From NCBI RefSeq assembly GCF_003626975.1, contig NZ_CP032616.1, positions 2,232,001 to 2,296,000 on the forward strand: a DNA stretch of 64,000 nt, written 5' to 3'. The translations under genes and the position numbers were made by a program. Positions within the stretch are counted from its first letter, which is position 1. Every line of letters begins with the position of its first letter. The stretch is from Pseudomonas sp. DY-1 (lineage in GTDB: Bacteria > Pseudomonadota > Gammaproteobacteria > Pseudomonadales > Pseudomonadaceae). The notes under the pieces are model-generated. The model ran no database searches. It worked only from the letters and a program-made list of their open reading frames with translations, and had not been told where the DNA came from. This document shows, piece by piece, positions 5,279 through 56,777 of the stretch.

Positions 5279-5387
5279 ATGGATATCGCTTCGCTCGTGG
5301 ACTACCCATCCATAACTCAACGCAGGGGGTGCTACGCGCACCAGATTGCCGGCGAGCAGATGCATCGGTGCGCACAGCGCACCCTAC
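5279..5387. repeat. Degenerate repeat ending in a GTAG-type REP
   Basis: On the minus strand the element begins GTAG at 5387-5384 and is followed by a perfect 7-bp hairpin GGTGCGC-TGT-GCGCACC (5383-5367), the classical REP layout. The adjoining stretch GTGGACTACCCATCC (about 5298-5312) resembles another common pseudomonad intergenic repeat. The TAG of the GTAG is the stop codon of the LysR gene. The remaining DNA between this repeat and the Anr box shows no further gene. Confidence 0.6.
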
Positions 5388-6271
5388 ACTGGAATCGGCG
5401 ACGATGACCCATCGCGCCGCTCCTGCTGCAGGTCGATCCAGGCGCGCAAGTTGGCCCCAAGCATGCCCTTGCGCCACATCAGCCAGGTGGTGGCGCGATC
5501 GAATGGCGCGCCCAACTCATGCACCCGCACCTCTTCCCTGCCCGGCAGGCTGTTCAACATCGAACGTGGCACCAGGGCAATGCCGCCGCCAGCGATTACA
5601 CAGGCCAGCATGCTGTGGTAGGACTCGATTTCCATCGGCGGCGACATCGGCACCCGTGAAGCCACGAACCAGCCCTCCAGGCGTCTGCGGTAGGAGCAAC
5701 TCTGGCGAAACGCATAGACTTCCAGCCCTGCCACATCCTCGGCCGAGCGCACCGGACCGTGGCTGGCCTCGGTGATCAGCACCATCTCTTCTTCGAACAT
5801 CGGCAGCCCATCCAGCTCGGCGAACTCCACCGGGCCATCCACCAGGGCAGCATCCAGGCGACCGCCCAGCAGGCCATCCAGGAGTTCACCGCTGGGAGCG
5901 GTCTGCACTTGCAGGTTCACCGCCGGCCAAGTGCGGTGGTAGCGCACCAGCATGGGCGGCAAGTGGATGGCGGCCGTGCTGAACATCGAACCAATGACGA
6001 AATCCCCCGCTGGCTCGCCGCCGCGCAAGGCCGCCTCGGCTTCCGCCTGCAGGGCGAACATGCGTTCGGCGTATCCCAGCAGCACCTTGCCCGCCGGCGA
6101 CAGGGTCAGCCGCTGCCGTTCACGCAGGAACAGCTCCACCCCCAGGTTCTCTTCCAGCTGCTTGAGGCGCGTGGAGAGGTTGGATGGCACCCGGTGCAGG
6201 CGGGACGCGGCGCGGGTAATGGAGCCCTCCTCGGCCACGGCCTGGAAGATGCGGAGCTGGCTGAGTTCCAT
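5384..6271 (-). CDS. LysR-family transcriptional regulator
   Basis: A 295-residue regulator. The N-terminal winged helix (MELSQLRIFQAVAEEGSITRAASRLHRVPSNLSTRLKQLE) is followed by a periplasmic-binding-protein-like effector domain from about residue 90 (GDFVIGSMFSTAAIHLP). The start at 6271 is preferred to one five codons upstream because it gives the family N-terminus. It is divergent from an MFS exporter gene across 110 bp holding a long inverted repeat, so it very likely controls that gene. Its stop codon TAG is the first part of a GTAG repeat, so the final residues may differ from relatives. The effector is unknown. Confidence 0.9.
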   Translation of the reverse strand: MELSQLRIFQAVAEEGSITRAASRLHRVPSNLSTRLKQLEENLGVELFLRERQRLTLSPAGKVLLGYAERMFALQAEAEAALRGGEPAGDFVIGSMFSTAAIHLPPMLVRYHRTWPAVNLQVQTAPSGELLDGLLGGRLDAALVDGPVEFAELDGLPMFEEEMVLITEASHGPVRSAEDVAGLEVYAFRQSCSYRRRLEGWFVASRVPMSPPMEIESYHSMLACVIAGGGIALVPRSMLNSLPGREEVRVHELGAPFDRATTWLMWRKGMLGANLRAWIDLQQERRDGSSSPIPV

Positions 6272-6284
6272 GAATTCACCATTC

Positions 6285-6316
6285 AATAAAAGAGAACAAC
6301 TGCATTCTTTTTTATT
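6285..6316. promoter_or_regulatory. Candidate LysR operator between divergent genes
   Basis: Inverted repeat AATAAAAGAGAA (6285-6296) and TTCTTTTTTATT (6305-6316) match at 11 of 12 positions with an 8-base spacer. It is strikingly AT-rich for this genome and begins 13 bp before the LysR start codon, between the two divergent genes. Confidence 0.6.
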
Positions 6317-6381
6317 CGTTTTTCATGAACAACACCAGTACTTAGGATGGAATCCCGATGATCTGCTTCGGAGCCCTTTCC

Positions 6382-7569
6382 ATGTCCCCGCTGATCCGAC
6401 TAATTGCCTGCTTCACGGCCCTGTTGGTGGCCATGGGGGTCGGCCGCTTCGCCCTCACTCCGCAGCTCCCGCACCTGATCGCCGAAGGTCAGGTGAGCCT
6501 GACCGGCGCCAGCCTGGTGGCGGCCGCCAACTACCTGGGCTATCTGGTCGGCGCCCTGGACGCCTTCCGCTCCAGCTCGTCGCGCCAGGCACGACTGCGC
6601 CTGGTCCTGGGGCTCTGGGCCACCGTATTGCTGACACTGGTTTCAGTGCCGGCCGACGGCTTCTGGTCCCACGCGCTGCTGCGCTTCGGCCTGGGCGTGA
6701 GCAGTGCCTGGGTGTTGGTGGTAGTCACCGGCCTCAGCCAGCGTATAGCCGCCGAAGCCAATCGGCCGCGCCTGGGCAGCCTGGTCTTCGCTGGTCCCGC
6801 CTTCGGAGTGATGCTGACCGGGCTCCTGGCCCTTGAACTGAACCTGCAAGGCCGGGGCTCCACCGCTATCTGGCTCGCCTTCGGTGGCCTCGCCCTGGTG
6901 CTCACCCTGATTGTCCAGCCGCTGCTACCACATCAGCAGCCGGCCACGACTGTGACCGAACAACCCGCACGGCAACGACCACGCGCGTTGTATACCCTGC
7001 TCGCCGCCTATGGCCTGGTAGGCCTGGGTTACATCATTCCCGCCACCTTTCTTTCGCAGATGGCTGCCGCGCGTTTTCACGGGCAATGGCAGGCGGACCT
7101 GTTCTGGCCTGCCTTTGGCCTGGCGGCTGCACTCGGTGTTCTGCTGGTCAGCCAGCGCCGTCAGCGACCGGGTGGCACCCGCCGCTGGCTGGTAGTCGCG
7201 CTCTGGCTGCAGGCTGCGGGTACCCTGGCCTGCGCTCTGCCGGGCATGGCCGGGTTGGTTCTGGGAGTGATCCTCAGTGGTGGCCCCTTCCTCGCCGGCA
7301 TGCAACTGGTGATGCAGCAAGCGCGCGAACTGGACCCGCATGGCCACGCCCGCAATGTCGGCCTGCTGACCGCTGCCTTCGCCCTGGGCCAACTGGCAGG
7401 CCCGTTGCTGGCGGCCTTGAGCAGCCACCTTTCCGGCGGGCTGCAACCGGCACTCTATGTAGCCGGCGCGGGGCTGATGCTGGCGGGGGGATTGATGATA
7501 GGGACCTGGGGTCGGAAACCTGTGGGGGCGAATTCATTCGCCAAGCAGGCCGAAGGGCTGCCCCATTGA
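6382..7569 (+). CDS. YbfB/YjiJ-family MFS transporter
   Basis: A 395-residue inner-membrane transporter. The first helix ends in MGVGRFALTPQLPHLI, the recognisable signature of the YbfB/YjiJ branch of the major facilitator superfamily; about twelve hydrophobic segments follow. The start at 6382 is preferred over one eight codons upstream because GGAG lies 9 bases before it. Divergent from the LysR gene, so probably under its control. The last roughly 16 residues (VGANSFAKQAEGLPH) are encoded by a type A repeat: the ORF enters the element at 7522 and stops inside it at 7567-7569, so the natural C-terminus has been replaced. Substrate unknown. Confidence 0.88.
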   Translation: MSPLIRLIACFTALLVAMGVGRFALTPQLPHLIAEGQVSLTGASLVAAANYLGYLVGALDAFRSSSSRQARLRLVLGLWATVLLTLVSVPADGFWSHALLRFGLGVSSAWVLVVVTGLSQRIAAEANRPRLGSLVFAGPAFGVMLTGLLALELNLQGRGSTAIWLAFGGLALVLTLIVQPLLPHQQPATTVTEQPARQRPRALYTLLAAYGLVGLGYIIPATFLSQMAAARFHGQWQADLFWPAFGLAAALGVLLVSQRRQRPGGTRRWLVVALWLQAAGTLACALPGMAGLVLGVILSGGPFLAGMQLVMQQARELDPHGHARNVGLLTAAFALGQLAGPLLAALSSHLSGGLQPALYVAGAGLMLAGGLMIGTWGRKPVGANSFAKQAEGLPH

Positions 7570-7616
7570 GGTTGAGGGGCTGCTACGCAGCCCTTCGCGA
7601 ATGAATTCGCCCCCAC
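7522..7616. repeat. Paired REP element (REPIN-like), type A, overlapping MFS 3' end
   Basis: GTGGGGGCGAATTCATTCGC at the left end and its inverted counterpart GCGAATGAATTCGCCCCCAC at the right end enclose about 55 bp, which itself contains GGGCTGCTACGCAGCCC. Two REPs in opposite orientation is the REPIN arrangement. The left half is translated as the tail of the MFS protein. Confidence 0.85.
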
Positions 7617-7644
7617 AAAAGGCAGGCACCAACGAGGAGAGTAT

Positions 7645-8730
7645 CTAGGTCCCGGTCTTGATCTTGGTCCAGGTGCGGGTACGGATGCGCTCCAGCTTCG
7701 GCGGCAGCATCTCCACCGAGAACAGCTTGGCCTGCACCTCCGCCGGCGGGTAGACGTTGGGGTTGTCGCGCAGCTCGGCGGAGATCAGCGAGTCTGCCGC
7801 CTGGTTCGGGTTGGCGTAGGCGACGTGGTCGGAGATCGGCGCCACCACTTCAGGACGCAGCAGGTAGTTGAGGAAGGCGTGGGCCTGCTCGACGTTCTTC
7901 GCATCCTTCGGAATCGCCAGCACATCGAACCAGGCCGCGGTGCCCTCCTTGGGGATGCGGTACTCCACCTTCACGCCGTTACCGGCTTCCCGCGCACGGG
8001 CGGCCGCCTGCATCGCACCGCCAGACCAGGCGAGGGCCACGCAGACCTCGCCATTGGCGAGGTCGGTGACGAACTTCGACGAGCTGAAGTAGGTGATGTT
8101 CGGCCGGAGTCTGACCAGCAATTCCTCGGCCTTCTGGTAGTCCTCGGGATTACGGCTGTTGGGCGACAGGCCCAGGTAATGCAGGACTTCAGGAATCACT
8201 TCGGTGGGCGAGTCGAGGAAGGCAACGCCGCATTGCTTGAGCTTGGCCAGGTTGTCCGGGTTGAAGATCAGCTCCCAGGAATCCACCGGCGCGTTTTCGC
8301 CCAGCACAGCCTTCACCTTGTCGACGTTGTAAGCAATGCCGTTGGTGCCCCACATGTACGGCATCACGTACTGGTTGCCCGGGTCCTTGGCGGCCAGGAC
8401 CTTGAGCAGCGCCGGGTTGAGGTTCTTCCAGTTCGGCAACTTGCTCTTGTCCAGAGGCTGGAACACGCCGGCCTTCATGTAGTTGGGCAGGAAGCTGTCG
8501 CTGGGTACCACCAGGTCGTAACCCGAATGGCCGGAGAGCAGCTTGGCCTCCAGCAATTCGTTGCTGTCATACACGTCGTACTGGGGCTTGATGCCACTGT
8601 CGGCCTGGAAATTCTTCAGGGTATCCGGAGCGATGTAGTCGAACCAATTGTAGATACGCACCTGGGATTCGGCGGCAGCATTCAGCGAGGCGCCCAGCAA
8701 GGCACCGGCCAGCAGGATTCGAGTCTTCAT
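7645..8730 (-). CDS. PotF-like polyamine-binding periplasmic protein
   Basis: A 361-residue extracellular solute-binding protein with a signal peptide (residues 1-20, ending ...SLNAAAES). The mature start VRIYNWFDYIAPDTLKNF is the hallmark of the PotF/SpuD/SpuE group. Its start codon overlaps the stop of the upstream acetylpolyamine amidohydrolase gene as ATGA, so the two are translationally coupled, indicating acetylated polyamines or a product as ligand. No PotG, PotH or PotI partners are here, so it either shares another transporter's membrane parts or acts as a sensor. A paralogue of equal length lies at 21549-22634. Confidence 0.9.
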   Translation of the reverse strand: MKTRILLAGALLGASLNAAAESQVRIYNWFDYIAPDTLKNFQADSGIKPQYDVYDSNELLEAKLLSGHSGYDLVVPSDSFLPNYMKAGVFQPLDKSKLPNWKNLNPALLKVLAAKDPGNQYVMPYMWGTNGIAYNVDKVKAVLGENAPVDSWELIFNPDNLAKLKQCGVAFLDSPTEVIPEVLHYLGLSPNSRNPEDYQKAEELLVRLRPNITYFSSSKFVTDLANGEVCVALAWSGGAMQAAARAREAGNGVKVEYRIPKEGTAAWFDVLAIPKDAKNVEQAHAFLNYLLRPEVVAPISDHVAYANPNQAADSLISAELRDNPNVYPPAEVQAKLFSVEMLPPKLERIRTRTWTKIKTGT

Positions 8731-9767
8731 TGCGCAGCCCCTTCGTAGCCCTGCAGGACGTTCACCGCGTTCACACCGATGGCTTCCACCGCGTAGCCGC
8801 CTTCCATGATGAACAGCGTCGGCAGGCCGAGGGCGGCGATGCGCTGGCCCATGCGGATGTAATCCGGCGAGTCCAGCTTGAACTTGGAAATCGGGTCGTC
8901 CTTGTAAGTGTCCACGCCCAGGGAGATCACCAGGGCATCCGGCGCGTAGGCAGCGATCCTTCGGCAGGCGTCGTCGAGGGCGGCGGACCAGCCGTCCCAG
9001 TCGGTGCCGTGGGGCAACGGGTAGTTGAGGTTGAAGCCTGCGCCCGCACCTTCACCGCGCTCGTCGGCGTGGCCCAGGTAGTAGGGGTACTCCACCAGCG
9101 GGTCGCCATGGATCGAGGCGAACAGGACATCGGCGCGGTCGTAGAACAGTTCCTGCGTGCCGTTGCCGTGGTGGTAGTCGACATCGAGGATCGCCACTCG
9201 TTTCGCGCCCTGGTCGAGGAAGGCCTGAGTGACGATGGCGGCGTTGTTGAAGAAGCAGTAGCCGCCCATGAAATCGCTGCCGGCATGGTGGCCCGGCGGC
9301 CGGCAGAGGGCGAAGGCGGTGTTGGCGCCCTGGCGCATGTGGTCCTGGGCGGTCAGCGCCACCTGGGCAGAGCTGTACACGGCCTGCCAGGTGCCGGCGG
9401 TGATCGGCGCTTCGGTGTCGAAGCAGTAGTGGCCGAGTTGGCCATGCAGCGCGGTGGGGATGGGGCCATCGCGGCGCAGACGGCGTGCCGGGAAGGTGGT
9501 GGGGAGCATGTCGCAGCTATGGCCTTCGGCGGCCCAGCGATCCCAGGCACCCTTGAGGAACTCCACATAAGCCGCGTCATGCACGCGCAGGACCGGCTCC
9601 AGGCCGAAGTCCTTCGGCTCGATCACTTCGCCGATTTCCTGCTGACGGACCCGCGCCAGCACGGTGTCTGCGCGGCTAGGCATTTCGAAGCAGGGCTGGA
9701 GCTTGCCGTCGACCAGTTCAGACTGGCCGAAATGGAGACGGTGATCGTCGCTATAGACTGTCAGCAT
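8727..9767 (-). CDS. aphA: Acetylpolyamine amidohydrolase (histone deacetylase fold)
   Basis: A 346-residue zinc-dependent deacetylase that removes the acetyl group from acetylated polyamines. Active-site features are visible: RPPGHHAG with the catalytic His160-His161 pair, and DVDYHHGNGTQ with zinc ligands Asp197 and His199; the third ligand should be the Asp in SLGVDTYKDDP. The start at 9767 (MLTVYSDDHRLHFG) is chosen because the open frame upstream is repeat-derived and not conserved-looking. It is followed by a coupled PotF-like protein. The pair suggests uptake and deacetylation of acetylputrescine or acetylcadaverine as nutrients; the precise substrate is inferred. Confidence 0.9.
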   Translation of the reverse strand: MLTVYSDDHRLHFGQSELVDGKLQPCFEMPSRADTVLARVRQQEIGEVIEPKDFGLEPVLRVHDAAYVEFLKGAWDRWAAEGHSCDMLPTTFPARRLRRDGPIPTALHGQLGHYCFDTEAPITAGTWQAVYSSAQVALTAQDHMRQGANTAFALCRPPGHHAGSDFMGGYCFFNNAAIVTQAFLDQGAKRVAILDVDYHHGNGTQELFYDRADVLFASIHGDPLVEYPYYLGHADERGEGAGAGFNLNYPLPHGTDWDGWSAALDDACRRIAAYAPDALVISLGVDTYKDDPISKFKLDSPDYIRMGQRIAALGLPTLFIMEGGYAVEAIGVNAVNVLQGYEGAAQ

Positions 9768-9885
9768 GGGAGGCACCTTATCGGTCTTGTTATTGATGGG
9801 GGGATTCTGTGCGGAACCGGGGGTGTTTGCGCAGTGGCAAGGACGGCCAATAGGGGATTGATATGGCCAACTTTCCTGGCCGGAC

Positions 9886-9928
9886 ACCCTCTCTCCCATC
9901 CCCTCACCCTGAAGTGGGGAGGGGTGAC
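9886..9928. repeat. Degenerate CCCTCTCC-type intergenic repeat
   Basis: CACCCTCTCTCCCATCCCCT followed by CACCCTGAAGTGGGGAGGGGTG can fold through CCCCT/AGGGG arms. It belongs to the same dispersed family as the hairpins at 295 and 26650. The remaining DNA of this 208-bp gap shows no gene. Confidence 0.5.
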
Positions 9929-9975
9929 TCGCGCCTGATGTCTTGAATGTGCGGCGCTGAACCCTGCTCCCCCAT

Positions 9976-10995
9976 CTACCCCCGGAAATGACTCGGCGGC
10001 TGCCCACTCCAGCGCTGGAAAGCATGGCGCAGGCTGGCGGTTTCGCTGAAGCCGAGTTCTTCGGCGATGCGGTAGATGGGCATGTCACCTTGCTGGAGCA
10101 TTTCCTTGGCACGGGTGAAGCGCAGTTCGTCCAGCAGTTGCTGGTAGCTGGTCTGCTGCTGGGCCAGGTGACGGCGCAGGCTGCGCGAGGAGCAGTTCAT
10201 CTGCCGGGCCAGCTCTTCCAGCCCTGGCGGGTCCTGCAGACGCGCGGCAAGCAGGCCGCGAACGCGTTCCAGCCAGGCGCGGCGGGCAGCGAACTCGACA
10301 TTCTGTCGGCGGCACTGTTCGAGCATTTCCTTGTGGGTCACCGGGTCGGCGAGCGGTAGGCGGCGTGCCAGCCAGGCAGCATCGAACCCCATGGCGCTGC
10401 GAGTGGCGCCAAAGCTCACCGGGCAGCCGAAGCCACGCGCATAGGGTCGCACCATGCCACTGCCGGCGGGGTAATCCAGCTGCACTGCGCGCAGTGGCAA
10501 AGACTGCCCCAACAGGTCGGCGAAAGTGACCTTGAGCGAGCCCAGGCACACCTCGGTGTTGAACGCCCGCAGGGATTCATCTTCGCTGTAGCCACAGGCA
10601 CTGAGCCACGCAGTGTCGCCGTCCTGCTCCAGGGCAAGTCGAAAGTAGGTGCCCAGCAGCACCGGGTAACTGAGGCCGACGCGCAAGGCATCGCCGAAGG
10701 TCGGTGCGGAAAGCATCGCGTAGCCGAGCAGGCCATAGGCGGAGATGCGCGTGCGCAGTCCGAGGGTCAGGCCCAGAGCGGGGCGCGGCATCAGGCGCAC
10801 GGCGTTGGCGTAGACCTGCTGCTCCTGTTCCGGATTGATCAGCCGCTGCAACTCGAGCAGGTCCTGCTCGCTGATGCCGCTGCCGGCCAGTACATCGGCG
10901 GTTTCGATGCCCTCCTCCTGCAACAGCGCGGCGGTCAGCGCCGACATGTGCAGGGAGTTGAGCCAGGTGGCGCGGGAGAACGTGTGCTCGACCAT
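9976..10995 (-). CDS. AraC-family regulator with PF12625-type N-terminal domain
   Basis: A 339-residue regulator. The first about 210 residues match the layout of the arabinose-binding-like domain seen in OruR/ArgR-type regulators (LMPRPALGLTLGLRTRISAYGLLGYAMLSA). The C-terminal double helix-turn-helix runs from about residue 240 (LEELARQMNCSSRSLRRHLAQ ... IAEELGFSETASLRHAFQRW). It starts only 5 bp after the aceK stop with TAAGGATC as ribosome binding site, so it is probably cotranscribed with aceK. It may instead control the neighbouring polyamine genes downstream on the same strand. Its effector is unknown. Confidence 0.85.
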   Translation of the reverse strand: MVEHTFSRATWLNSLHMSALTAALLQEEGIETADVLAGSGISEQDLLELQRLINPEQEQQVYANAVRLMPRPALGLTLGLRTRISAYGLLGYAMLSAPTFGDALRVGLSYPVLLGTYFRLALEQDGDTAWLSACGYSEDESLRAFNTEVCLGSLKVTFADLLGQSLPLRAVQLDYPAGSGMVRPYARGFGCPVSFGATRSAMGFDAAWLARRLPLADPVTHKEMLEQCRRQNVEFAARRAWLERVRGLLAARLQDPPGLEELARQMNCSSRSLRRHLAQQQTSYQQLLDELRFTRAKEMLQQGDMPIYRIAEELGFSETASLRHAFQRWSGQPPSHFRG

Positions 10996-11000
10996 GATCC

Positions 11001-12737: not shown

Positions 12738-12796
12738 GGTGATTTCTCTGCTGCGGAAACGGGAAAGCCGAGCTTAGCCAGAAAAAAGTGCCCGTT

Positions 12797-12893: not shown

Positions 12894-12910
12894 GGAGTCC
12901 TCTCGCCTAC

Positions 12911-22634: not shown

Positions 22635-22844
22635 TGTCTTTTTGTCCTGGCTGCTTGTGGATCGAGACCCCGTCGTGCGGGGCTTCCAGCTTCTCCATCA
22701 CCGCCACCAGTGACAATGCGCGGCAAGTCCCAGCGTGCCCGCGAGGAAGCCTGACCTGGAGCAAAACCAGGCCATTGGCGGCGTCTACACTTCTGCCTTG
22801 ACCGGCCCGCCTGCCTGGGGCCGTGCAGCGCAAGGATGGTCGCC

Positions 22845-24503
22845 ATGCTCCAGTCCGTCTCACCGAAGAACGATCTCCCCCTCGACGCCGAACCCGAAGC
22901 CACTCCACGCAAGGGCCTGTTCAGTCCCTTCACCATTGCCGCCTTCCGCATCATCTGGATCGCCAACCTGTTCGCCAACCTGGGTACCTGGGCGCAGTCG
23001 GTGGCCGCCGCCTGGGTGGTCACCGAGGCGCACGCCAGTCCCTTGCTGGTCGCGATGATTCAGGTCGCCTCGGCCCTGCCCCTTGTGCTCATGTCGATCC
23101 TCTCAGGCGTGCTGGCAGACAACCACGACCGGCGCAAGATCATGCTCGCCGGACTTTGCTTCGAGATGAGCGGCGCCATCTTCCTCAGCGCCATTGCGTT
23201 CCTCGGCTATCTGGACCCGATCCTGCTGATCGTCTCCATCCTCTGGATCAGCATTGGCGGCGCCATCACCATCCCGGCCTGGCAGGCGGCGGTGAGCGAG
23301 CAGGTGCCAGGAGAAATGCTGGGCAATGCGGTGCTGCTCAACAGCGTCAACTACAACGTCGCCCGCGCCGCAGGCCCAGCCCTGGGCGGCCTGATGCTCA
23401 GCGCCGTGGGCCCGGCCTGGGTGTTCCTGTTCAACTGCCTGTGCTACCTGGGCCTGATAGGCGCGATCTGGCAGTGGCGCCGCAGCATTCCCGTTCGTTC
23501 CCTGCCACCCGAAGGCCTGATACAGGGCGTGGTAGCGGCCCTGCGCTTCACCCAGTACTCCAGCGTCACCCGCCTGGTCATGCTGCGCTCGTTCTCTTTC
23601 GGCATTTCCGCCAGCGCCGTCTGGGCACTGCTTCCGCTGCTGGCGCACCGCAACCCGGATGGCGACGCCACGGTATACGGCTACATGCTCGGCGCCCTTG
23701 GAGTTGGCGCCATCAGCGGCAGCCTGCTGGTCAACCGTGGACGCCTGCTGATCGGTACCAGCAAGCTGATCAGCCTGGCCGGCCTGTTATTTGGCGTGGT
23801 GATGCTGGCGCTGGGCTCGCTGGACAGCCTCTGGGTGATCTTCCCAGCCCTGCTTTTGGGCGGCATCTGCTGGATCGCAGCAGTGGCCAGCTATAACTCG
23901 GCGGTGCAGATTCTGGTGCCGGACTGGGTCAAGGCCCGCGCCCTGGCGCTGTACCAGACGGCGATCTATGGCGGGCTGGCGCTCGGCTCTTACCTCTGGG
24001 GCCACCTGGCGGAAAGCATGGGTGTGAAGGGAGCACTGTTCAGCGCCGGCTGCCTGATGATCGCCTGCGCCTTCCTGCTCTACCCACGCCGCCTGCCGGA
24101 GCTGGACGCTTCCAGCATCGCCCACGCCGACAGCCCGCAGCCTGGCCAACCGAGCTTCTCATTCGATCCGGATCGGGGCTCCGTGCTGGTGACGATCGAA
24201 TACCGCATTCCCCAGGAACGCACCCGCGACTTCGTCCGCGCCAGCCGCCCGCTTCGCCGTCTGCGTCTGCGCAACGGCGCCGAACGCTGGGCGCTCTATC
24301 GCGATGCCAGCGAACCGGAGCTGTGGCAGGAAACCATGGTGGTGGAGAACTGGCTGCAGCACCTGCGGATGCTCGACCGCCTGACCATCGCGGACAAGGC
24401 GATCATCGACAACCTGGCCATGCTGCACGAAGGCGATGGCCCGCCTCGCGTGCGCCACGGAGTGAGCTATGAGTCGGGGAGCTATGAACCTGCGCAGACG
24501 TAG
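22845..24503 (+). CDS. MFS_3-type (enterobactin-exporter-like) transporter with C-terminal soluble domain
   Basis: A 552-residue protein. Residues 1-410 form a twelve-helix major facilitator domain with the MFS_3 head (FSPFTIAAFRIIWIANLFAN) and the loop ADNHDRRKIML. The last about 110 residues (VLVTIEYRIPQERTRDFVRA onward) form a soluble dimeric alpha-beta-like domain typical of the longer MFS_3 members. The start at 22845 is favoured over 22836 because AAGGA overlaps the earlier ATG and is well spaced for the later one. The stop codon TAG is the edge of a repeat element. Substrate unknown; efflux of a siderophore or toxic compound is suggested by relatives. Confidence 0.85.
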   Translation: MLQSVSPKNDLPLDAEPEATPRKGLFSPFTIAAFRIIWIANLFANLGTWAQSVAAAWVVTEAHASPLLVAMIQVASALPLVLMSILSGVLADNHDRRKIMLAGLCFEMSGAIFLSAIAFLGYLDPILLIVSILWISIGGAITIPAWQAAVSEQVPGEMLGNAVLLNSVNYNVARAAGPALGGLMLSAVGPAWVFLFNCLCYLGLIGAIWQWRRSIPVRSLPPEGLIQGVVAALRFTQYSSVTRLVMLRSFSFGISASAVWALLPLLAHRNPDGDATVYGYMLGALGVGAISGSLLVNRGRLLIGTSKLISLAGLLFGVVMLALGSLDSLWVIFPALLLGGICWIAAVASYNSAVQILVPDWVKARALALYQTAIYGGLALGSYLWGHLAESMGVKGALFSAGCLMIACAFLLYPRRLPELDASSIAHADSPQPGQPSFSFDPDRGSVLVTIEYRIPQERTRDFVRASRPLRRLRLRNGAERWALYRDASEPELWQETMVVENWLQHLRMLDRLTIADKAIIDNLAMLHEGDGPPRVRHGVSYESGSYEPAQT

Positions 24504-24596
24504 GTTGGTGCAGGCGGCGTTACGTCAGAGCGCAGCGAAGCCCGACACTGCGAGGCCCAAAGCCTGAATGTTGGGCCTCGCGAAGCTCGGACCAAC

Positions 24597-24600
<4 letters not shown>
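24500..24600. repeat. 101-bp element with GTAGGTTGGT terminal inverted repeats
   Basis: Begins GTAGGTTGGT (24500-24509) and ends ACCAACCTAC (24591-24600). The interior contains a perfect 11-bp stem GCGAGGCCCAA (24550-24560) and TTGGGCCTCGC (24571-24581), probably a bidirectional terminator for the convergent flanking genes. The TAG at each end is the stop codon of the gene on that side. A related end (ACCAACCTAC) is present at 42910-42919. Confidence 0.85.
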
Positions 24601-25571
<971 letters not shown>

Positions 25572-42829: not shown

Positions 42830-42959
42830 AAGGTTCGCGCCGGGGGCGGGCATGAAGTCACCCCTCGCCCTTCAGGGAGAGGGGCTGGTGGGGTTCGCTA
42901 CGCTCAGCACCAACCTACGGCAGGACTGCGTCCTGCTTGGCGAATGAATTCGCCCCTAC
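42830..42959. repeat. Composite repeat region abutting plsC
   Basis: In order: a copy of the plsC 3' end (42830-42868, 'AAGGTTCGCGCCGG...GGC'), a CCCTCTCC-family repeat (CCCCTCGCCCTTCAGGGAGAGGGG, 42861-42884), an end of the GTAGGTTGGT family (ACCAACCTAC, 42910-42919) and half of a type A REP (GGCGAATGAATTCGCCCCTAC, 42939-42959). The gap 42696-42774 also holds GGCGAATGAAATGGC, a REP relic. Several repeat families seem to have accumulated here. Confidence 0.65.
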
Positions 42960-43765
42960 AGGGTTCGCGCCGGAGGTGGATAAGAAGTCACCCCGTCAGG
43001 ATTCGTGGCGTCACCGAGCTGCTGCCCCAGCAACCCCTCCATCCGCTCGCGAGTCTCGGCCATCAGCTCACCGAGCCGCTCCGGGCCGTACCGGCTGGCA
43101 TCGATGGGCTCGCCCACGTGCACTTCCACCTTCTGCCCAAGGTTCAGGCGGAAGGTGCGGGCCGGCAGCACGCGGTGGATGCCGCGGATGGACACGGGAA
43201 TGATCACCGCATCGGTATCCAGCGCCAGATGGAAGCAGCCCTTCTTGAACTTCAGCAGACGGCCATCGGCGGATCGGGTGCCCTCAGGCGCAGCCCAGAG
43301 GACGATGCCGCTTTCCATCATCTGCCGAGCGGTGGCCAGATCAGCCAGGGCCTGGCGCCGGTTGTGCCGATCGATGGAGGGGAATTCCGCCGCACGCATG
43401 GCCGGGCCGAGGAAGGGAATGCGGAACAGCTCCTTCTTCGCCAGCATGCGGATCGACCCCGGCAGCGCGACGAAGCTGGCCGGAATGTCGTAATGGCTGG
43501 AATGGCTGCAAAGAACCAGATAGCGGCGGCCATCATTGAAATCAGGTATCGCGCCGTGCACCGACAGGTCCATGCGCACCAGGCGCAGAAGCAGGCGTGA
43601 CATGGCACGGGTATAGCGGTCCACACAGGCGCGGTCGAGGCGCCCCAGCGGCGCGCGCATCAGCACAAGGCAGCAGTAGTAGAAGACCACCGAAAGAGTC
43701 CCCAGGATCACGCCCAGACGGCGGATCAGCGAGGCACGTTCACTCAGAATTTGCAGGCTTGGCAT
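42956..43765 (-). CDS. plsC: 1-acylglycerol-3-phosphate acyltransferase (PlsC-like)
   Basis: A 269-residue membrane-associated acyltransferase that forms phosphatidic acid from lysophosphatidic acid. Transmembrane segment near residues 16-36 (LGVILGTLSVVFYYCCLVLM). Block I is HSSHYD with His88 and Asp93 (H-x4-D); block III reads EGTRSADGRLLKFKKGCFHL; block IV VIIPVSI. The last residues (PPPARTL) end at a TAG contributed by a REP element, and a second copy of the coding sequence just before the stop lies about 130 bp away outside the gene. Confidence 0.9.
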   Translation of the reverse strand: MPSLQILSERASLIRRLGVILGTLSVVFYYCCLVLMRAPLGRLDRACVDRYTRAMSRLLLRLVRMDLSVHGAIPDFNDGRRYLVLCSHSSHYDIPASFVALPGSIRMLAKKELFRIPFLGPAMRAAEFPSIDRHNRRQALADLATARQMMESGIVLWAAPEGTRSADGRLLKFKKGCFHLALDTDAVIIPVSIRGIHRVLPARTFRLNLGQKVEVHVGEPIDASRYGPERLGELMAETRERMEGLLGQQLGDATNPDGVTSYPPPARTL

Positions 43766-48939: not shown

Positions 48940-49491
48940 TCACGGCCGGCTTGCCAACGCCTGCTCCACGGCCTTCAGCAGATCAGGGTCGTCGGGCTTG
49001 GTCAGGCTGGAGAAGTGCGCAATCACCTTGCCCTGGCGATCCACCACGTACTTGTAGAAGTTCCAGCGCGGTTTCTGCCCTGACTGGGCGATCAGTTCCT
49101 TGTAAAGCGGTGTCGCCTCGTCACCAGTGACGTGCTGCGGCTGGGTCATGGCGAACGTCACACCATAGTTGACGTAGCAGACCTTGGCGGTTTCCTCGGT
49201 ACTGGCGGCTTCTTGCTTGAAGTCGTCCGAAGGCACGCCGAGCACTTCCAGCCCCTGGTCCTTATAGCGCTTGTAGAGCGCTTCAAGCCCTTTGAACTGC
49301 GGGGTGAAACCGCAGTGACTGGCGGTGTTGACGATCACCAGCGGCTTGCCGGCGAAGCGCTGGCAAAGGTCGATGGTGTTCTTGGAACGAAGTTGCGGCA
49401 GCTCGTGCTGCAGCAGCGAAGGACATTCGGCAGCCATGGCCTGGCCGCCGAGCAAGGCAAGCGACAGGAAGAGGATGGGCGAGGCTTTCAT
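48940..49491 (-). CDS. Glutathione peroxidase family protein, exported
   Basis: A 183-residue thiol peroxidase with signal peptide ([20 protein letters not shown]). The peroxidatic Cys60 is in [20 protein letters not shown], in place of selenocysteine, and the second motif [10 protein letters not shown] and the later [12 protein letters not shown] are present. It probably reduces peroxides in the periplasm, taking electrons from thioredoxin-like partners as bacterial Cys-GPx do. It stands alone. Confidence 0.9.
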
Positions 49492-49546
49492 GGCGGACTC
49501 CGGCGCAGGTCGATTGATCCGCTTAAGCTACTGCCAAGTGCAGCGC

Positions 49547-49666
49547 CTAGCAATTGAAGCCCAGCTGCATCAACGCCAGCCCACCCTGCTCCCAGCCCCA
49601 CCAGCCCAAGGCCAGCAGCGAGCCCGCGAGCAGGGCGCCAAGTGCCCAGCCCAGGTACAGGCTCAT
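49547..49666 (-). CDS. 39-residue single-span membrane protein, coupled to MFS gene
   Basis: A 40-codon frame starting MSLYLGWALGALLAGSLLAL and ending with LGFNC, essentially one hydrophobic helix followed by a Trp/Gly segment. Its ATG overlaps the TGA of the upstream MFS transporter gene in the ATGA form, the usual sign of translational coupling. It could be an accessory subunit of that transporter. No name is known to me; the frame could be chance, but the coupling and membrane character argue for a real gene. Confidence 0.5.
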   Translation of the reverse strand: MSLYLGWALGALLAGSLLALGWWGWEQGGLALMQLGFNC

Positions 49667-50868: not shown

Positions 50869-50881
50869 AGAAAATCCTTTA

Positions 50882-50895
50882 CGGGTACATACCCG
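50882..50895. promoter_or_regulatory. MarR operator candidate before the MFS gene
   Basis: Perfect palindrome CGGGTA-CA-TACCCG, 14 bp upstream of the MFS start codon. A near copy precedes the marR gene at 51332-51345. Confidence 0.6.
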
Positions 50896-50911
50896 CTTTC
50901 CATCGAAAGAA

Positions 50912-51325
50912 TCAGCTGATGTGTTCCAGATCATCCAGCAGCGCCATCAGCGCCGCTCGCTTCTCCAGTCCTATGCGTTGCCCCAGTTGCACCTGTACCT
51001 GTTCCCAGGCCCGCAGCGCTTCATCGAGCCTGGCGTGCCCGGCAGCGGTTAGCGAAACCAGACGATTGCGCTGGTCCTCACCGCCCTCCAACTGCACCAG
51101 CCCCTTGCCTTCAAGCACCTTCAGATTGCGCCCGAGGGTGCTGCGATCCAGACCCAGGGCTTCCGCCAGGCTGGTGATGCTGGGCTGATCCAGCCGCGCC
51201 AGGTTCTTCAACAGCGAATACTGGGCGACGTTCACCCCAACGCCCTCGAGAGCATCGTCGTAGAGCCGGGTCACGCTTCGCGTGACGCGGCGCAGCTTGG
51301 TACAGAGGCATTGGGTCGGCAACAT
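50912..51325 (-). CDS. MarR-family transcriptional regulator
   Basis: A 137-residue winged-helix repressor. The DNA-binding helices are SITSLAEALGLDRSTLGRNL, with wing EGGEDQRNRLVSLTAAGHAR and flanking dimerisation helices. The start at 51325 (MLPTQCLCTKLR) is preferred; Cys6 and Cys8 near the N-terminus could make it redox-sensitive, as in OhrR, which is speculation. It lies 43 bp upstream of the MFS gene and has matching palindromes at both promoters. Confidence 0.9.
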   Translation of the reverse strand: MLPTQCLCTKLRRVTRSVTRLYDDALEGVGVNVAQYSLLKNLARLDQPSITSLAEALGLDRSTLGRNLKVLEGKGLVQLEGGEDQRNRLVSLTAAGHARLDEALRAWEQVQVQLGQRIGLEKRAALMALLDDLEHIS

Positions 51326-51331
51326 GAGATA

Positions 51332-51345
51332 CGTGTATATACCCG
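51332..51345. promoter_or_regulatory. MarR autoregulatory operator candidate
   Basis: CGTGTA-TA-TACCCG differs from the operator at 50882 at one arm position and the centre. It is 7-20 bp upstream of the marR start codon, over the probable promoter. Confidence 0.55.
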
Positions 51346-51496
51346 CAACTGCCTGATCGTCAATCCAAGCCTGCCGTTCGACGCCCGCTGGCCGAAGGTG
51401 ATTGTCCCAATTGCCAGAGGCTGTCGTAGCCGCTGCCAAGGATCTCGCGTGGCCTGCCCCGTATAAACCGGGCCATCAACGCACGCCGAGGTCACC

Positions 51497-53317
51497 ATGC
51501 CCAGCTACAAAGCCCCGCTGCGCGACACGCGCTTCCTGCTCAACGAAGTCTTCGACTTTCCCGCCCACTACCGCGCCCTGGCCAATGGCGGCGAAGCGAC
51601 CCCTGACATGGTCGACGCCATCCTCGGCGAATGCGCACGGCTCTGCGAAGAAGTGATCGCCCCGCTCTACCACAGCGGCGACGAGGAAGGTTGCCACCTG
51701 GAAAACGGCGAGGTACGCACACCCAAGGGTTTCAAGGAAGCCTACGACGCCTATGTCGCCGGCGGCTGGCAAGGCCTGTCGCACCCGGTGGAATACGGCG
51801 GCCAGGGCTTGCCGATGAGCCTCGGTGCTCTTAAGCAGGAAATGCTCGGCACCGCCAACTGGCCGTTCTCCATGTATCCGGGCCTCTCCCTCGGCGCCAT
51901 GAACACCCTGATGCAGCACGGCACCGAGGAACAGAAAAGGACCTACCTGGTGCCTCTCACCGAAGGCCGCTGGGGCGGCACCATGTGCCTGACCGAGCCC
52001 CAGTGCGGCACCGACCTTGGCCAGGTGAAGACCCGCGCCGATGCCAATCCCGACGGCAGCTATTCCCTGACCGGTACCAAGATCTTCATCTCCTCGGGCG
52101 AGCACGACCTCACCGAGAACATCGTGCACATCGTGCTCGCCCGACTGCCGGATGCGCCGAAAGGTACGCGCGGCATCTCCCTGTTCATCGTACCCAAGTT
52201 CCTTCCCGGCACCGATGGCGGCCTGGGCGAGCGCAACGGGGTGAGCTGCGGGGCGCTGGAGAAGAAAATGGGCATCAAGGCCTCCAGCACCTGCGTGATG
52301 AACTTCGACGGTGCCACCGGCTTTCTCATCGGTCCGGCGAACAAGGGCCTCGAATGTATGTTCACCTTCATGAACAGCGCCCGTATCGGGACTGCCATCC
52401 AGGGCGTGGCCACCGCGGAACTGGCCTATCAGGGTGCCCTCGCCTACGCCCGCGAACGCCGCTCCATGCGCGCCCTGTCCGGCACCAAGGAACCCGACTC
52501 CGTCGCCGACCCACTGATGGTCCACGGCGACGTACGACGCATGCTACTGACCCAGAAAGCCGTGGCCGAAGGTGGCCGTGCGCTGGTCTACCTCGCTACC
52601 CAGTACGCCGACCGCATGATCGAAGGCATCCTGCACAAGGACGAACGGCAGTACGCCCACTGGGATGACAAACTCGGTTTCCTCACGCCGATTCTCAAGG
52701 GCTGCCTGACCGAGCTGGGCCTGGAAAGCGCCAACCTCGGCATGCAGGTGTTCGGCGGCCATGGCTACATCCGAGAACACGGTATGGAGCAGATCGTCCG
52801 CGACGCCCGAATTGCCACCCTCTACGAGGGCACCACCGGCATCCAGGCCCTTGACCTGCTGGGCCGCAAGGTGCTGCTGATGACCCAAGGCAAGGCCGTG
52901 CGTGACTTCACAGGCGAGCTCGCCCGTTTCGCCATCGAACTGCTGAAGACCGAACCCGCCATGCGCGGACGAGCCCTGGTGCTGCTCAGGATGGCCGCGC
53001 AATGGAACTGGCTGACCCTGCGCATCGCCCTGCGCGCCCGCAAGGACCGCGACCTGGTGAGCACCGCCAGCCACGACTTCCTGATGTACTCCGGCTACGC
53101 CGCCCTGGCCTATGCCTGGGCCCTGCAAGAGCGCGCGGCCCGCGTGCGGCTGCGCGAAGGTGGCGCGGACTCCGCCGAGTTCTACCGCGCCAAACTGGCC
53201 ACCAGCGACTTCTACTTCGCCCGCCTGCTACCTCGCGCAAAAGGGCACGCGACGGCCATGCTGAAGCCGACTGGGACGGTGATGGGACTGGCGGGCGAGC
53301 ATTTTGTATTTGAGTGA
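51497..53317 (+). CDS. Acyl-CoA dehydrogenase with C-terminal extension
   Basis: A 606-residue flavoenzyme, longer than classic (about 380-residue) members because of a C-terminal domain typical of the FadE5-like group. FAD/substrate signatures: MCLTEPQCGTDLGQVKTRA and FISSGEHDLTENI; the second core motif HGYIREHGMEQIVRDARIATLYEGTTGIQALDLLGRK includes the catalytic Glu region. It catalyses the first step of fatty acid beta-oxidation, chain length unknown. The gene has no regulator in line; the divergent marR-mfs pair is 170 bp upstream. Confidence 0.92.
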   Translation: MPSYKAPLRDTRFLLNEVFDFPAHYRALANGGEATPDMVDAILGECARLCEEVIAPLYHSGDEEGCHLENGEVRTPKGFKEAYDAYVAGGWQGLSHPVEYGGQGLPMSLGALKQEMLGTANWPFSMYPGLSLGAMNTLMQHGTEEQKRTYLVPLTEGRWGGTMCLTEPQCGTDLGQVKTRADANPDGSYSLTGTKIFISSGEHDLTENIVHIVLARLPDAPKGTRGISLFIVPKFLPGTDGGLGERNGVSCGALEKKMGIKASSTCVMNFDGATGFLIGPANKGLECMFTFMNSARIGTAIQGVATAELAYQGALAYARERRSMRALSGTKEPDSVADPLMVHGDVRRMLLTQKAVAEGGRALVYLATQYADRMIEGILHKDERQYAHWDDKLGFLTPILKGCLTELGLESANLGMQVFGGHGYIREHGMEQIVRDARIATLYEGTTGIQALDLLGRKVLLMTQGKAVRDFTGELARFAIELLKTEPAMRGRALVLLRMAAQWNWLTLRIALRARKDRDLVSTASHDFLMYSGYAALAYAWALQERAARVRLREGGADSAEFYRAKLATSDFYFARLLPRAKGHATAMLKPTGTVMGLAGEHFVFE

Positions 53318-53374
53318 GATCGGGGGAATCGCGGGGAATTTTCGGAAGGCAACGAAGCTGATTGCATAGAAGAT

Positions 53375-53415
53375 CGAGCCTTTCCACATCAGAGGAAAGG
53401 CCATGGAAAGGCTCG
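53375..53415 (+). promoter_or_regulatory. Hairpin masking the start of the DUF559 gene
   Basis: CGAGCCTTTCC (53375-53385) can pair with GGAAAGGCTCG (53405-53415), which covers codons 1-4 of the gene. The same left arm can instead pair with the ribosome binding site GGAAAGG at 53394-53400. Either fold would reduce translation. Confidence 0.45.
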
Positions 53416-53987
53416 AGTTTGCCAGGCGGCTTCGGGTAGAACAGACGGATGCGGAGCAGCGGCTTTGGCAGCATCTGCGCGCAAAGCGGTTACTCGGAAT
53501 GGAGTTTCGGCGGCAGAAACCCATTGGACCCTACATCGTCGAATTCATCTGCCAGGAACGGATGCTGGTGATTGAAGTGGACGGCGGGCAGCACCCGGAA
53601 AGTAAGTCCAATGAAGCGCGAGACACCTGGTTCGTCGTGCGGGTATTCCGGGTCCTGCGGTTCTGGAACCACGAAGTGCTGCAGGAAACTGAAGCCGTGC
53701 TCGAAGCCATCCGATTGGCAGCGGAGGAAGCATTTCCCGGCAATCCCCTCTCCCCCGGCCCCTCTCCTCTTCAGGGAGAGGGGCCGGGGGAGAGGGCAGA
53801 TCAGGCGAACAACGCCACCCCCACCAACACCCCCACCTCCACCAACTCCACCATCGCTCCCGCCGTATCCCCGGTCGTGCCACCCAGGCGTTGCATGAAC
53901 CGCCCGCGCAGCCAGCCAAACAGCGCCAGCGCCGCCACCAGGGCGATCCAGGCGGGCCAGCCCAGCAGCAGAATCAGTGCCCCCTGA
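53403..53987 (+). CDS. DUF559 (Vsr-like endonuclease fold) protein, read-through 3' end
   Basis: A 194-residue frame. Residues 1-113 are a typical DUF559 protein: EQRLWQHLRAKRLLGMEFRRQ, PIGPYIVEFICQERMLVIEV, DGGQHPES and VFRVLRFWNHEVLQETEAVLEAI. The PD-(D/E)xK-like core has Glu in YIVEF where most relatives have Asp. DUF559 proteins are usually about 110-130 residues. Here there is no stop before the 53746 repeat, so translation runs through it (NPLSPGPSPLQGEGPGERAD) and continues 187 bases antisense to cobS. The tail is thus probably an artefact of repeat insertion. The function of DUF559 proteins is not established. Confidence 0.75.
   Translation: MERLEFARRLRVEQTDAEQRLWQHLRAKRLLGMEFRRQKPIGPYIVEFICQERMLVIEVDGGQHPESKSNEARDTWFVVRVFRVLRFWNHEVLQETEAVLEAIRLAAEEAFPGNPLSPGPSPLQGEGPGERADQANNATPTNTPTSTNSTIAPAVSPVVPPRRCMNRPRSQPNSASAATRAIQAGQPSSRISAP
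53746..53796. repeat. 22-bp perfect hairpin repeat between DUF559 and cobS
   Basis: Left arm CCCTCTCCCCCGGCCCCTCT plus CC (53746-53767) and its exact inverted copy (53775-53796) with a TCTTCAG loop. It is the longest member of the CCCTCTCC/GGAGAGGG family in the window and likely terminates the cob operon. Confidence 0.9.
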
Positions 53988-54532
53988 ACCGCCAACCACA
54001 TCGGCAATTCGCGGCGCGGGAGATGTTCGGCAATCGCCTGTCCCAGGCCGCCGGGACGGACGTAAGGGGTGGTAAGGAACAGCAGGGGCAACATCCCTCG
54101 CGCCAGCCAGGGCGCCAGCAACAGGGGCAGCCATTGCCCTGCCTGCAACAGGGCCGTCAATGCAGCGAACTTGAGCAGCAGCACCACCACCAGCACCACC
54201 ACCGCGATCGGCCCGCTGCGTGGGTCCTTCATGATCGTCAGGGTGCGTTCGCGGTCGCCGTAGCCACCTACCCAGGCATCGGCCGTGTCCGCCAATCCGT
54301 CCAGATGCAGGCCGCCCGACAATCCGATCCAGAGTGCCAGCAACAGGGCCGCCGACAACAGCGGCGGATGCCCGTCCAGCAGCCAGGCACCGCCCAACAG
54401 CAGTGCGCCGAGCAGCAATCCGACCGGGGGATACCAGAGCAGCGACCGGCCGATCTGCGCCGGCTCCGGCATACCCGGCAGACGCACGGGCAGACGGGTG
54501 AGGAATTGCAGGGCGATCAGCAGGGGCGTCAT
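53801..54532 (-). CDS. cobS: Adenosylcobinamide-GDP ribazoletransferase (cobalamin synthase)
   Basis: A 243-residue inner-membrane enzyme that joins adenosylcobinamide-GDP with alpha-ribazole, the last or near-last step of cobalamin synthesis. The family signature GGLHLDGLADTADAWVGG is followed by GDRERTLTIMKDPRSGPI; five to six helices follow. Also named cobV. Its start overlaps the cobC stop as ATGA with GGAG eight bases upstream. It is the last gene of the operon. Confidence 0.95.
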   Translation of the reverse strand: MTPLLIALQFLTRLPVRLPGMPEPAQIGRSLLWYPPVGLLLGALLLGGAWLLDGHPPLLSAALLLALWIGLSGGLHLDGLADTADAWVGGYGDRERTLTIMKDPRSGPIAVVVLVVVLLLKFAALTALLQAGQWLPLLLAPWLARGMLPLLFLTTPYVRPGGLGQAIAEHLPRRELPMWLAVQGALILLLGWPAWIALVAALALFGWLRGRFMQRLGGTTGDTAGAMVELVEVGVLVGVALFA

Positions 54533-55095
54533 GGGCGCTCCCGCAGACCGTGTACGTCGAAGGTCAGGCGGAACAGCTCGCCATGGGCCACTTCCACCTG
54601 CATCAACCCGGTGCGCGGCAACTGCCGGGCGCGGGCCACCAGGATGCGGATCACACCGCCATGGGTGACCAGCAGCACCCGCTTTCCGGCGAAGCGCTCC
54701 AGCAGACGCTCACCGGCAGCCAGCACCCGAACCTCGAAGTCCAGCAGGGTTTCACCGTCCGGCGGGGTGAAGCTATAGGGGTCATTCCAGAACTGGCCAA
54801 GCCCCTCGGCGTGATCCTCCATCAATTCGGCGGCGCTGCGGCCTTCCCATTGACCGAAGTGCAGTTCGCGCAGGTCGGAATCGAAATGCAGCGGCAGGCC
54901 AAGCTGCAGCTCCAGCTCGCAGGCGAACGCGGCGCAACGTTGCAGGGGCGAACTCACCAGCACGTCCCATGGCCCGGCACCGACGATGCCCGCGCGCATC
55001 TGCGTCCAGCCTTTGTCGGTCAGGGCGTCGTCGAGGCTGCCACGAAAGCCGCCGCCCCGTTCGGTTTCACCATGCCTCAGGAGGTCGAGCTTCAT
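54529..55095 (-). CDS. cobC: Alpha-ribazole phosphatase (histidine phosphatase family)
   Basis: A 188-residue phosphatase that removes the phosphate from alpha-ribazole-5'-phosphate or adenosylcobalamin phosphate. The phosphohistidine motif is [15 protein letters not shown]; the second histidine is in [10 protein letters not shown], and the acid in [11 protein letters not shown]. The frame is open far upstream but 55095 ([10 protein letters not shown]) fits. Overlaps both neighbours by ATGA junctions; ends RERP followed by TGA. Confidence 0.92.
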
Positions 55096-56150
55096 TCCGG
55101 CCGGTCCGAAACCGAAGCTTCGGCGAAGGTCGCCATGCCGCCATGGAGTTCGCAGGCCAGGCGCAATAGCGGCAGTGCGATGGCGGCCCCGCTGCCTTCG
55201 CCCAGGCGCAGGCCCAGGTCCAGTAGCGGCTGAGCCTCCAGTGCCTCGAGCACGGCGACGTGACCCGGCTCGGCGGAACGATGGGAGAACAGAAGCCACT
55301 CGCGACAGGCGGGGTTCAGGCGCACGGCGCATAGCGCCGCCACGCTGCAGATGAAGCCGTCCACCAACGCCGGCAGGCCCAGCTGGGCGCAGGCGAGGTA
55401 GGCGCCGGTCAGCGCCGCTACTTCGAAGCCGCCGAGGCGGCGCAGGGTTTCCTGCGGGCTGTCGCAGCCTTCGCGATGCAACGCCAGGGCATGTTCGATG
55501 ACCTGGATCTTGTGGGCCACTCCCTTGCCGTCGAGACCGGTGCCTGGGCCAGCCATCGCGGTGGCGGGCAGGTCCAGCAGGGCACAGGCCAGGGCGCTGG
55601 CGGTGGTGGTGTTGCCGATGCCCATTTCGCCGCCGACGTAAAGATCGGCGCTCGCGCCCAAGGCGCGCTCGACGCTGGAGCGGCCGGCTTGCAGGGCGAT
55701 CAGGCACTGGGCGGCGGTCATTGCCGGTTCGCGGGCGAAATTCGCGGTGCCGGCGCCCACGTGCAGGTGCAGCACACCCGGCAGGGGTTCCAATGGCAAC
55801 GCTGTGCCCAGGTCCACCAGTTCCAGGGTTGCGCCGAGGCTTTTGGCCAGCACGCTGATGGCGGCACCGCCGCGGACGAAGTTGCGCAGCATCTCGCCGG
55901 TCACCGCCTGTGGATAGGCGGACACGCCCTCTTCCACCACGCCGTGGTCACCGGCGAAGACCGCGAACCAGGGGCGATCGATGCACGGCCGCTCGCGCCC
56001 TTGTTGGGCGGCGAGCGTGATGGTGAGGTCCTCGAGTTGACCGAGGGCGCCACGGGGCTTGGTCAGCTGATCCTGCCGGGCCTGGGCCTTGGCACGAGCG
56101 ATGGGATCGAGGGGCTGGCAGGGGGCCTGCCACCAGTGCAGCGGAGTCAT
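55092..56150 (-). CDS. cobT: Nicotinate-nucleotide--dimethylbenzimidazole phosphoribosyltransferase
   Basis: A 352-residue enzyme making alpha-ribazole-5'-phosphate from dimethylbenzimidazole and nicotinate mononucleotide. Visible motifs: [34 protein letters not shown], and near the end [16 protein letters not shown] with the catalytic Glu. The dimethylbenzimidazole is supplied by bluB of the same operon. Overlaps cobC and cobU by four bases each. Confidence 0.96.
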
Positions 56151-56668
56151 AGGGAATCTCCCTTGAGGATCATGGGCAAGCCGGCGACGGTGAAGATCAC
56201 CCGTTCGCTGCGTTCGGCCAGGGCCTGGTGCAGCCAGCCGGCCTCGTCGACATAGCGACGGGTCAGCTCGCCCAGGGGCACGACGCCCAGGCCGGTTTCA
56301 TTGCTTACCAGCAGCACGCGACCGGGAAGCCCGGCGATGCAACCGAGCAGCGCTTCGCGCTCTTCGTCCAGCCGCGCCGGATCGTCCAGCATGAGCAGGT
56401 TGGTCAGCCAGAGCGTCAGGCAGTCCACCAGCAGGCAGGTATCGTCGGCGGCGCTCTCGCGCAGCACTCGAGCGAGTTGCGACGGTTCTTCCACCAGCCC
56501 CCAGTGCTCCGGACGGCGGGCACGATGATGGGCGACCCGCGCGCTCATCTCGCCGTCCAGCGGCTGGCTGGTGGCGATATAAATGACCTTGAGGCCGCTT
56601 TCAGCAGCGAGCTTTTCCGCCAACCGGCTTTTGCCGGAGCGGGCACCGCCGAGGATGAGTTCAAGCAT
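56147..56668 (-). CDS. cobU: Adenosylcobinamide kinase / guanylyltransferase
   Basis: A 173-residue bifunctional enzyme that phosphorylates and then guanylylates adenosylcobinamide. The P-loop is [17 protein letters not shown] at the N-terminus; HRARRPEHW carries the His that becomes guanylylated; [12 protein letters not shown] and [11 protein letters not shown] follow. Also named cobP. It is separated from cobQ upstream by 105 bp with a REP element, the only real gap in the distal operon. Confidence 0.95.
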
Positions 56669-56717
56669 CGTTAAACCTCGTCGTTCGTGGGGCTGGCCCT
56701 AGATAGGGAGCACGGCC

Positions 56718-56777
56718 GTAGGAGCCTGCTTGCTGGCGAAGGTTGCGCCGAAGGTCCGCCAGCAAGCTGGCTCCTAC
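56718..56777. repeat. REP-type palindrome, type C, inside the cob operon
   Basis: GTAGGAGCCTGCTTGCTGGC and GCCAGCAAGCTGGCTCCTAC-like arms are inverted around a 20-bp centre; it is the same family as 42775-42829. The TAG of its right edge on the minus strand is the cobQ stop codon. Confidence 0.85.

Follow-up and report, generated by a model that had tools for sequence, protein, structure and literature searches.

REPs (repetitive extragenic palindromic elements) with a GTAG edge are already known to provide TAG stop codons, which Di Nocera et al. (2013, PMC3733652) stated in one sentence. That paper resembles the present work in placing REPs close to gene 3' ends; the parts of it covered here, supplements excluded, hold no count of stop codons, no comparison with repeat-free orthologues, no frame test and no case of different repeat families on one stop. 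GTAG and GTGG edges are also treated by Nunvar (2010, PMC2817692) and in PMC8266576, whose main subject, as far as their accessible text goes, is the recognition and evolution of REPs and not the stops of ordinary genes. The same texts note that REPs can follow the stop codon of a rayt gene directly or at a very short distance, and according to PMC8266576 the transposase TnpAREP recognizes the REP and cleaves at a CT dinucleotide, with GTAG as the likely guide. In E. coli, REPs at a distance of up to 15 nt from a stop codon stall ribosomes, as cited in the RepRanger paper (PMC12306157); there too a REP hairpin lies beside a stop, but at a distance after it, whereas here the stop lies within the repeat edge. 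We analyzed a stretch of 64,000 nucleotides of Pseudomonas sp. DY-1 (contig NZ_CP032616.1, positions 2,232,001 to 2,296,000; hereafter the window), in which the TAG of a GTAG repeat edge serves as the stop codon of five genes, and followed this pattern through the genome, related species and E. coli. An initial annotation of the window knew of no description of it; the core fact had in truth been published in 2013. The phenomenon is thus already known, and some of the detail, such as the counts against chance and the repeat-free comparison, is new: in the literature covered (mainly open papers, supplements excluded) we found neither of these, nor a case of one stop codon occupied by more than one REP family.

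Stop codons at repeat edges in the window and the genome

Direct reading of all five junctions bore out the five stops proposed in the initial annotation. The LysR gene ends as CCA GTG TAG GGTGCGC, MFS_3 as ACG TAG GTTGG, cysK as CAG TAG GTTGG, plsC as CTG TAG GGGCGAATTC and cobQ as CTG TAG GAGCC, and Pfam matches (LysR, MFS_3, PALP, Acyltransferase and CbiA/GATase_3, respectively) are consistent with the gene names. Four repeats are involved, and they belong to four types, GTAGGAGCCAGC (F1b), GTAGGGGCGAATTC (F2), GTAGGTTGG (F3) and GTAGGGTGCGC (F4), not to three as had been proposed.

The genome-wide count was made in the window plus 80 evenly spaced 20-kb stretches, together 1.664 Mb of the 5.91-Mb genome. 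Genes were called by a purpose-written script, not a standard tool; it missed a RAYT (REP-associated tyrosine transposase) gene, and its ends for E. coli mutT and rcsC equal the RefSeq ends. Among 1379 called genes, 1002 end on TGA, 221 on TAA and 156 on TAG, and in the window 15 of 62 called genes end on TAG, which makes this stop uncommon but not rare, as it had been called. Repeats were detected by their body alone, with the edge left free, giving 416 matches. Of the GTAG edges, 90 lie no more than 150 nt from a gene end; in 13 of these the TAG is a stop codon (position 0), and none is run into by a gene. GTGG edges within the same distance never coincide with a stop (0/40), because GTGG cannot yield TAG; there is one at offset 8, and a single gene reads on into a GTGG edge. 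Under a looser rule for F3 and a limit of 60 nt, the 72 GTAG edges divide into 13 at position 0, 58 farther downstream and one inside a gene.

Since the pattern was first noticed in the window, we also give counts for the 1.6 Mb outside it. There, 9/80 GTAG edges within 150 nt coincide with a stop. Within 60 nt, 9 of 56 are at position 0, compared with expectations of 0.46 under uniform placement (Poisson, P = 2e-9) or of 1.6 when the density at offsets 9-32 is taken as the basis (P = 5e-5), and hence the overlap of stops and GTAG edges exceeds random expectation. Viewed from the stop codons, the repeat-edge pentamer follows 19/156 TAG, 16/1002 TGA and 2/221 TAA stops of the whole sample (Fisher, P = 1e-9), and 14/141 TAG versus 18/1176 TGA or TAA stops when the window is left out (P = 1e-6). 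Three more cases escaped the repeat or gene rules, namely MFS_3, a gene with an ATAG-edged repeat (L039), which is listed apart from the 13 counted, and the RAYT gene, bringing the known position-0 genes of the sample to 16.

Reading frame and the base preceding the edge

Genes that enter a GTAG edge within 60 nt do so in the frame of its TAG in 13 cases and in the other two frames in one case. The base before GTAG is A at 3/13 edges at stops versus 2/168 elsewhere in the sample of this genome (P = 0.003), indicating that in those genes the last codon was preserved up to the border; the corresponding excess across species, 8/24 versus 4/258, counts three genes several times. The frame bias and these intact last codons fit insertion with selection for a working stop. 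Insertion next to T-GTAG as a rule at stops was considered and rejected: T precedes F1 and F2 edges in 9/14 cases at stops versus 134/167 elsewhere, which is not significant (P = 0.18).

Orthologues with and without the repeat

Eleven of the 16 known position-0 genes were compared within 18 genomes of the same genus (those at L015, L035, L037 and L039 and the RAYT gene were left out). The cysK product has 324 aa in 18/18 genomes, nine with TAG and F3 and nine with TAA and no F3. The LysE gene has a common end in 14 rows: the stop lies on F2 in three, on F3 in one and on a GTAGGGCGGGTGAAACCCGC palindrome in two (a putative repeat); of the other eight, seven have TGA in place of that codon and one has TAG with no clear repeat. 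At the plsC junction, the same position is occupied by TAG with F2 (two rows of 14), TAG with F1c (one) or TAA (two); one further row reads through the REP in another frame, and eight end on TGA at 263-267 aa, one of them (G013) within a degenerate repeat edge. In a related species (G003), a further exact case, the gene at L218, has TAA at the same length in 2/2 comparators. In two genes TAG may have existed before the repeat. Of the 15 rows of SBP (L065; 320 or 321 aa), nine end on TAG, five of them with F2 and four lacking a full repeat, and three each end on TAA and TGA. Of the 12 rows of HGLS (L066; 339-341 aa), ten end on TAG: five have F2, two have a broken repeat and three, all distant, have no repeat; the remaining two end on TAA and TGA.

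Other genes show changes in length. The cobQ product has 485 aa in the four rows with the repeat and 488-495 aa, ending on TGA, in 13 of the 14 without it (18 rows in all). The row set aside, from G005 (L113), has a reading frame of 676 aa that extends beyond the end point of the others. The LysR protein has 295 aa here, 289 aa in 7 of the other 17 rows and 284-301 aa overall. In G011 the LysR gene keeps a TGA that is gone in the window and has the same F4 repeat 21 nt downstream, and the G013 gene stops at 284 on an F3-like element. Nine rows of LacI (L034) end in KER or KQR (TGA in six, TAG in two, TAA in one), and the repeat-bearing forms of G000 (this genome) and G005 end three residues later. 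Protein length with the repeat is thus unchanged in cysK, LysE, plsC and SBP, reduced in cobQ and increased in LysR and LacI. For L045 there is one close row (81% identity), with 317 aa against 310, and for MFS_3 the 18 genomes contain no close repeat-free row.

The glycosyltransferase gene of L005 has a variable end (ten rows and our own). A GTAG edge stops it in G000, the GTAG of a broken repeat in G005 and a GTAGCCCGGATGGAATCCGGG palindrome in G006; in G007, G015 and G010 the edge is GTGG and the gene runs into the REP, and the other five rows end on TGA. In-frame reading through REPs adds REP-coded residues to this protein (L362, L363 and L369, all with a GTGG edge) and to plsC in one genome (L134).

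Repeat-free orthologues mostly end on TAA or TGA, which suggests that the repeats do not generally seek an existing TAG and that the edge supplies it. Of the two routes offered in the initial annotation, insertion at existing TAG stops is therefore not supported as a rule (TAA in cysK 9/9 and L218 2/2, TGA in LysE 7/8), with the reservation that TAG occurs without a full repeat in the HGLS and SBP rows given above, and donation of the stop by the edge agrees with the comparison. The accompanying idea that insertion trims the protein holds for cobQ and not for the genes whose length is unchanged or increased. Targets restricted to TAA, hinted at by cysK, plsC, the G003 gene and SBP, were abandoned in view of the TGA rows of LysE.

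Broken repeats retaining the edge do occur (rows of HGLS and L005). An F1- or F2-like pentamer without an intact body was seen at 7/258 TAG stops, which by informal judgement is near chance. The idea that an edge is trapped once it serves as a stop was not supported, as position-0 repeats are shared by 24/65 ordered orthologue pairs and downstream repeats by 94/220, in stretches picked around known position-0 genes.

Position-0 edges in E. coli

An independent sample, 450 kb of E. coli K-12, contains two position-0 cases, mutT and rcsC, among the 30 GTAG edges no more than 150 nt away from a gene end. In the mutT comparison, which covered 80 of the 247 loci found, 4/6 Escherichia rows have CTG or ATG followed by TAG on a REP edge, and 2/6 have TAA with the same REP body and no GTAG edge, so that the edge can evidently vanish while a stop persists. 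In these two genomes (L270 and L272) the REP body stands directly behind mutT, with TTTAA in place of the GTAG edge. Among the Citrobacter-labelled rows, 11/17 encode 129 aa and end on TAA; E. coli MutT also has 129 aa.

Repeat types and transposase genes

A GTAG or GTGG edge is present in 42/50 F1, 98/131 F2 and 28/41 F2b repeats found by body, and GTAG in only 15/129 F4 matches, a class that includes chance palindromes; the edge test rests on edges only, such palindromes notwithstanding. One F2 pattern has 74 exact matches genome-wide, compared with 0 for its reversed control. Distances between repeats and gene ends agree with a mainly intergenic location. The window copy of F3 is about 100 bp long with imperfect ends, and the palindrome expected of a REP has 20-40 bp. 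F1b matches a REP listed in this literature, GTAGGAGCCAGCTTGCTGGCGAA, and F3 resembles a Coxiella REP, GTAGGTTGGGC..., listed in Nunvar 2010 (PMC2817692).

Two Y1_Tnp genes were found in the genome by profile matches and are read as RAYTs. The one looked at (L043:19011-19463, plus strand, 150 aa) is followed by a long tandem array of F1 and F1b repeats, and the GTAG edge of the leading REP, a presumably cognate one of type F1, provides its stop codon. Its protein contains PDHLHWL, which we take to be the HuH motif. The proposal that the repeats are REP-type, with an edge linked to RAYTs, thus agrees with their GTAG and GTGG edges, their many copies and the RAYT gene in the genome.

Table 1. 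Repeats and the genes that end on them (positions in the window)
Feature	Positions	Strand	Stop codon	Details
F4 repeat pair	5326..5387	-		Half 5367-5387, minus strand GTAGGGTGCGC...GCGCACC; GTAG edge is the LysR stop
LysR-type regulator	5384..6271	-	TAG 5384-5386	Pfam LysR
MFS_3 transporter	22836..24503	+	TAG 24501-24503	Stop is left edge of F3 element
F3 element	24500..24600			GTAGGTTGG...CCAACCTAC; between convergent MFS_3 and cysK, one stop per edge
cysK-like PALP enzyme	24597..25571	-	TAG 24597-24599	Stop is right edge of F3 element
F2 repeat	42939..42959	-		GTAGGGGCGAATTCATTCGCC; edge is the plsC stop
plsC-like acyltransferase	42956..43765	-	TAG 42956-42958	
F1b REP pair	56718..56777			GTAGGAGCC...GGCTCCTAC; right edge is the cobQ stop
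cobQ	56774..58231	-	TAG 56774-56776	

Origin of the edge stops

The surplus of edges at position 0, the rarity of the other two frames, the TAA or TGA of most repeat-free rows and protein lengths that are unchanged, trimmed or extended are most readily explained by ordinary REP insertion, probably by a RAYT, combined with selection for junctions that still stop translation; we give this explanation a probability of about three in four. The repeats are probably REP- or REPIN-type elements, with F3 as a longer GTAG-edged relative, spread by RAYT transposases. When a repeat lands at or beside the 3' end of a gene, translation would continue until it meets a stop in its frame. For one of the three frames this would be the TAG of the GTAG edge, and the protein would have a clean end at the border; a gene in either remaining frame, or one facing a GTGG edge, would be translated on into the hairpin. 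Selection would then retain mainly the junctions with an in-frame edge stop, often exactly at the ancestral position. The contrast of GTAG and GTGG edges at the L005 glycosyltransferase counts for this explanation. Both the RAYT as agent and selection, instead of target choice, as filter are probable.

Several observations weigh against it. Insertion is deduced from comparison with other species, not with strains of one. Different repeat families on one codon across species, as in LysE and plsC, hint at an effect of the site. Moreover, the bases just behind stops are nearly free of edges. With offsets measured from the first base of the stop, a GTAG edge cannot lie at 1 or 2 and requires a TAG stop at 3; offsets 4-8, which leave 0-4 nt between the stop and GTAG, hold no GTAG edges versus about 8-10 expected from the density farther out (P = 2e-4), and one GTGG edge versus about six (P = 0.02), and yet a repeat beginning there ought to do no harm. 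Hairpins other than REPs are scarcer, not absent, in this region, with 13 in the first 4-nt bin after stops and 19 in the second versus 70 at the peak at 16-19 nt. The zone is not entirely empty in other genomes: one F3 edge and one GTGG edge lie in it in relatives, and in two Citrobacter-labelled mutT rows (L278 and L287) only 3 nt separate the TAG from GTAG. A nearly empty zone next to a filled position 0 means that selection alone is not enough as an explanation. Finally, in stretches of five related species and three of our own genome, 6/37 REP-type and 5/29 F3-type GTAG edges are at position 0, but the relatives' stretches were picked around the window, SBP and HGLS, only two of the 11 cases are new (L218:16215-16706 and L225:18242-18589) and the other nine are orthologous to genes already known, and the set is not an independent replicate; the pentamer count in the relatives (18/102 TAG versus 8/534 other stops) shares this selection bias.

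The site effect could be explained by insertion that favours stop-codon contexts, for example because GTAG briefly matches the sequence of the gene end or because single-stranded DNA is exposed, making position 0 a hotspot. The zone behind the stop would fit such a preference, as would the unchanged lengths of cysK, plsC, SBP, LysE, the G003 gene and E. coli mutT and the use of a single codon by several families in LysE (F2, F3 and the palindrome) and plsC (F2 and F1c). We nevertheless consider it unlikely: cobQ, LysR, LacI and the LysR gene of G013 are inexact, GTGG-edged repeats do not pile up near stops, a constrained C-terminus would produce exactness through selection alone, and the cleavage rule reported for the transposase in the accessible text of PMC8266576 is a CT dinucleotide, not a stop codon. 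Less probable again is capture by stop loss, in which a repeat already present downstream took over, its edge being the next stop in frame once the native one had mutated. The LysR gene of G011 looks like the starting point of such an event; among 65 ordered pairs, however, the partner of a position-0 orthologue has a repeat 9-60 nt downstream in only three, and stop loss is thus not the main route. Coincidental overlap of a common motif with stop codons, some of which is expected as every GTAG edge holds a TAG, is refuted by the excess outside the window and has practically no probability left. A further reading, unlikely but with some probability left, is that stop codons are true hotspots, on which different families land independently at the same codon of one gene in different species, turning TAA or TGA into TAG with the protein unchanged and the bases behind the stop spared. 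If this were true, a mobile element would partly determine how often such genomes use TAG.

Outside the window, approximately one in ten TAG stops (14/141) precedes a repeat-edge pentamer, and a mobile repeat thus helps to set stop-codon usage and some protein C-termini in this organism. GTAG-edge stops offer a check on the annotation of genes near REPs, and the frame filter and the nearly empty zone give testable numbers for the effect of a stop-adjacent hairpin on termination.

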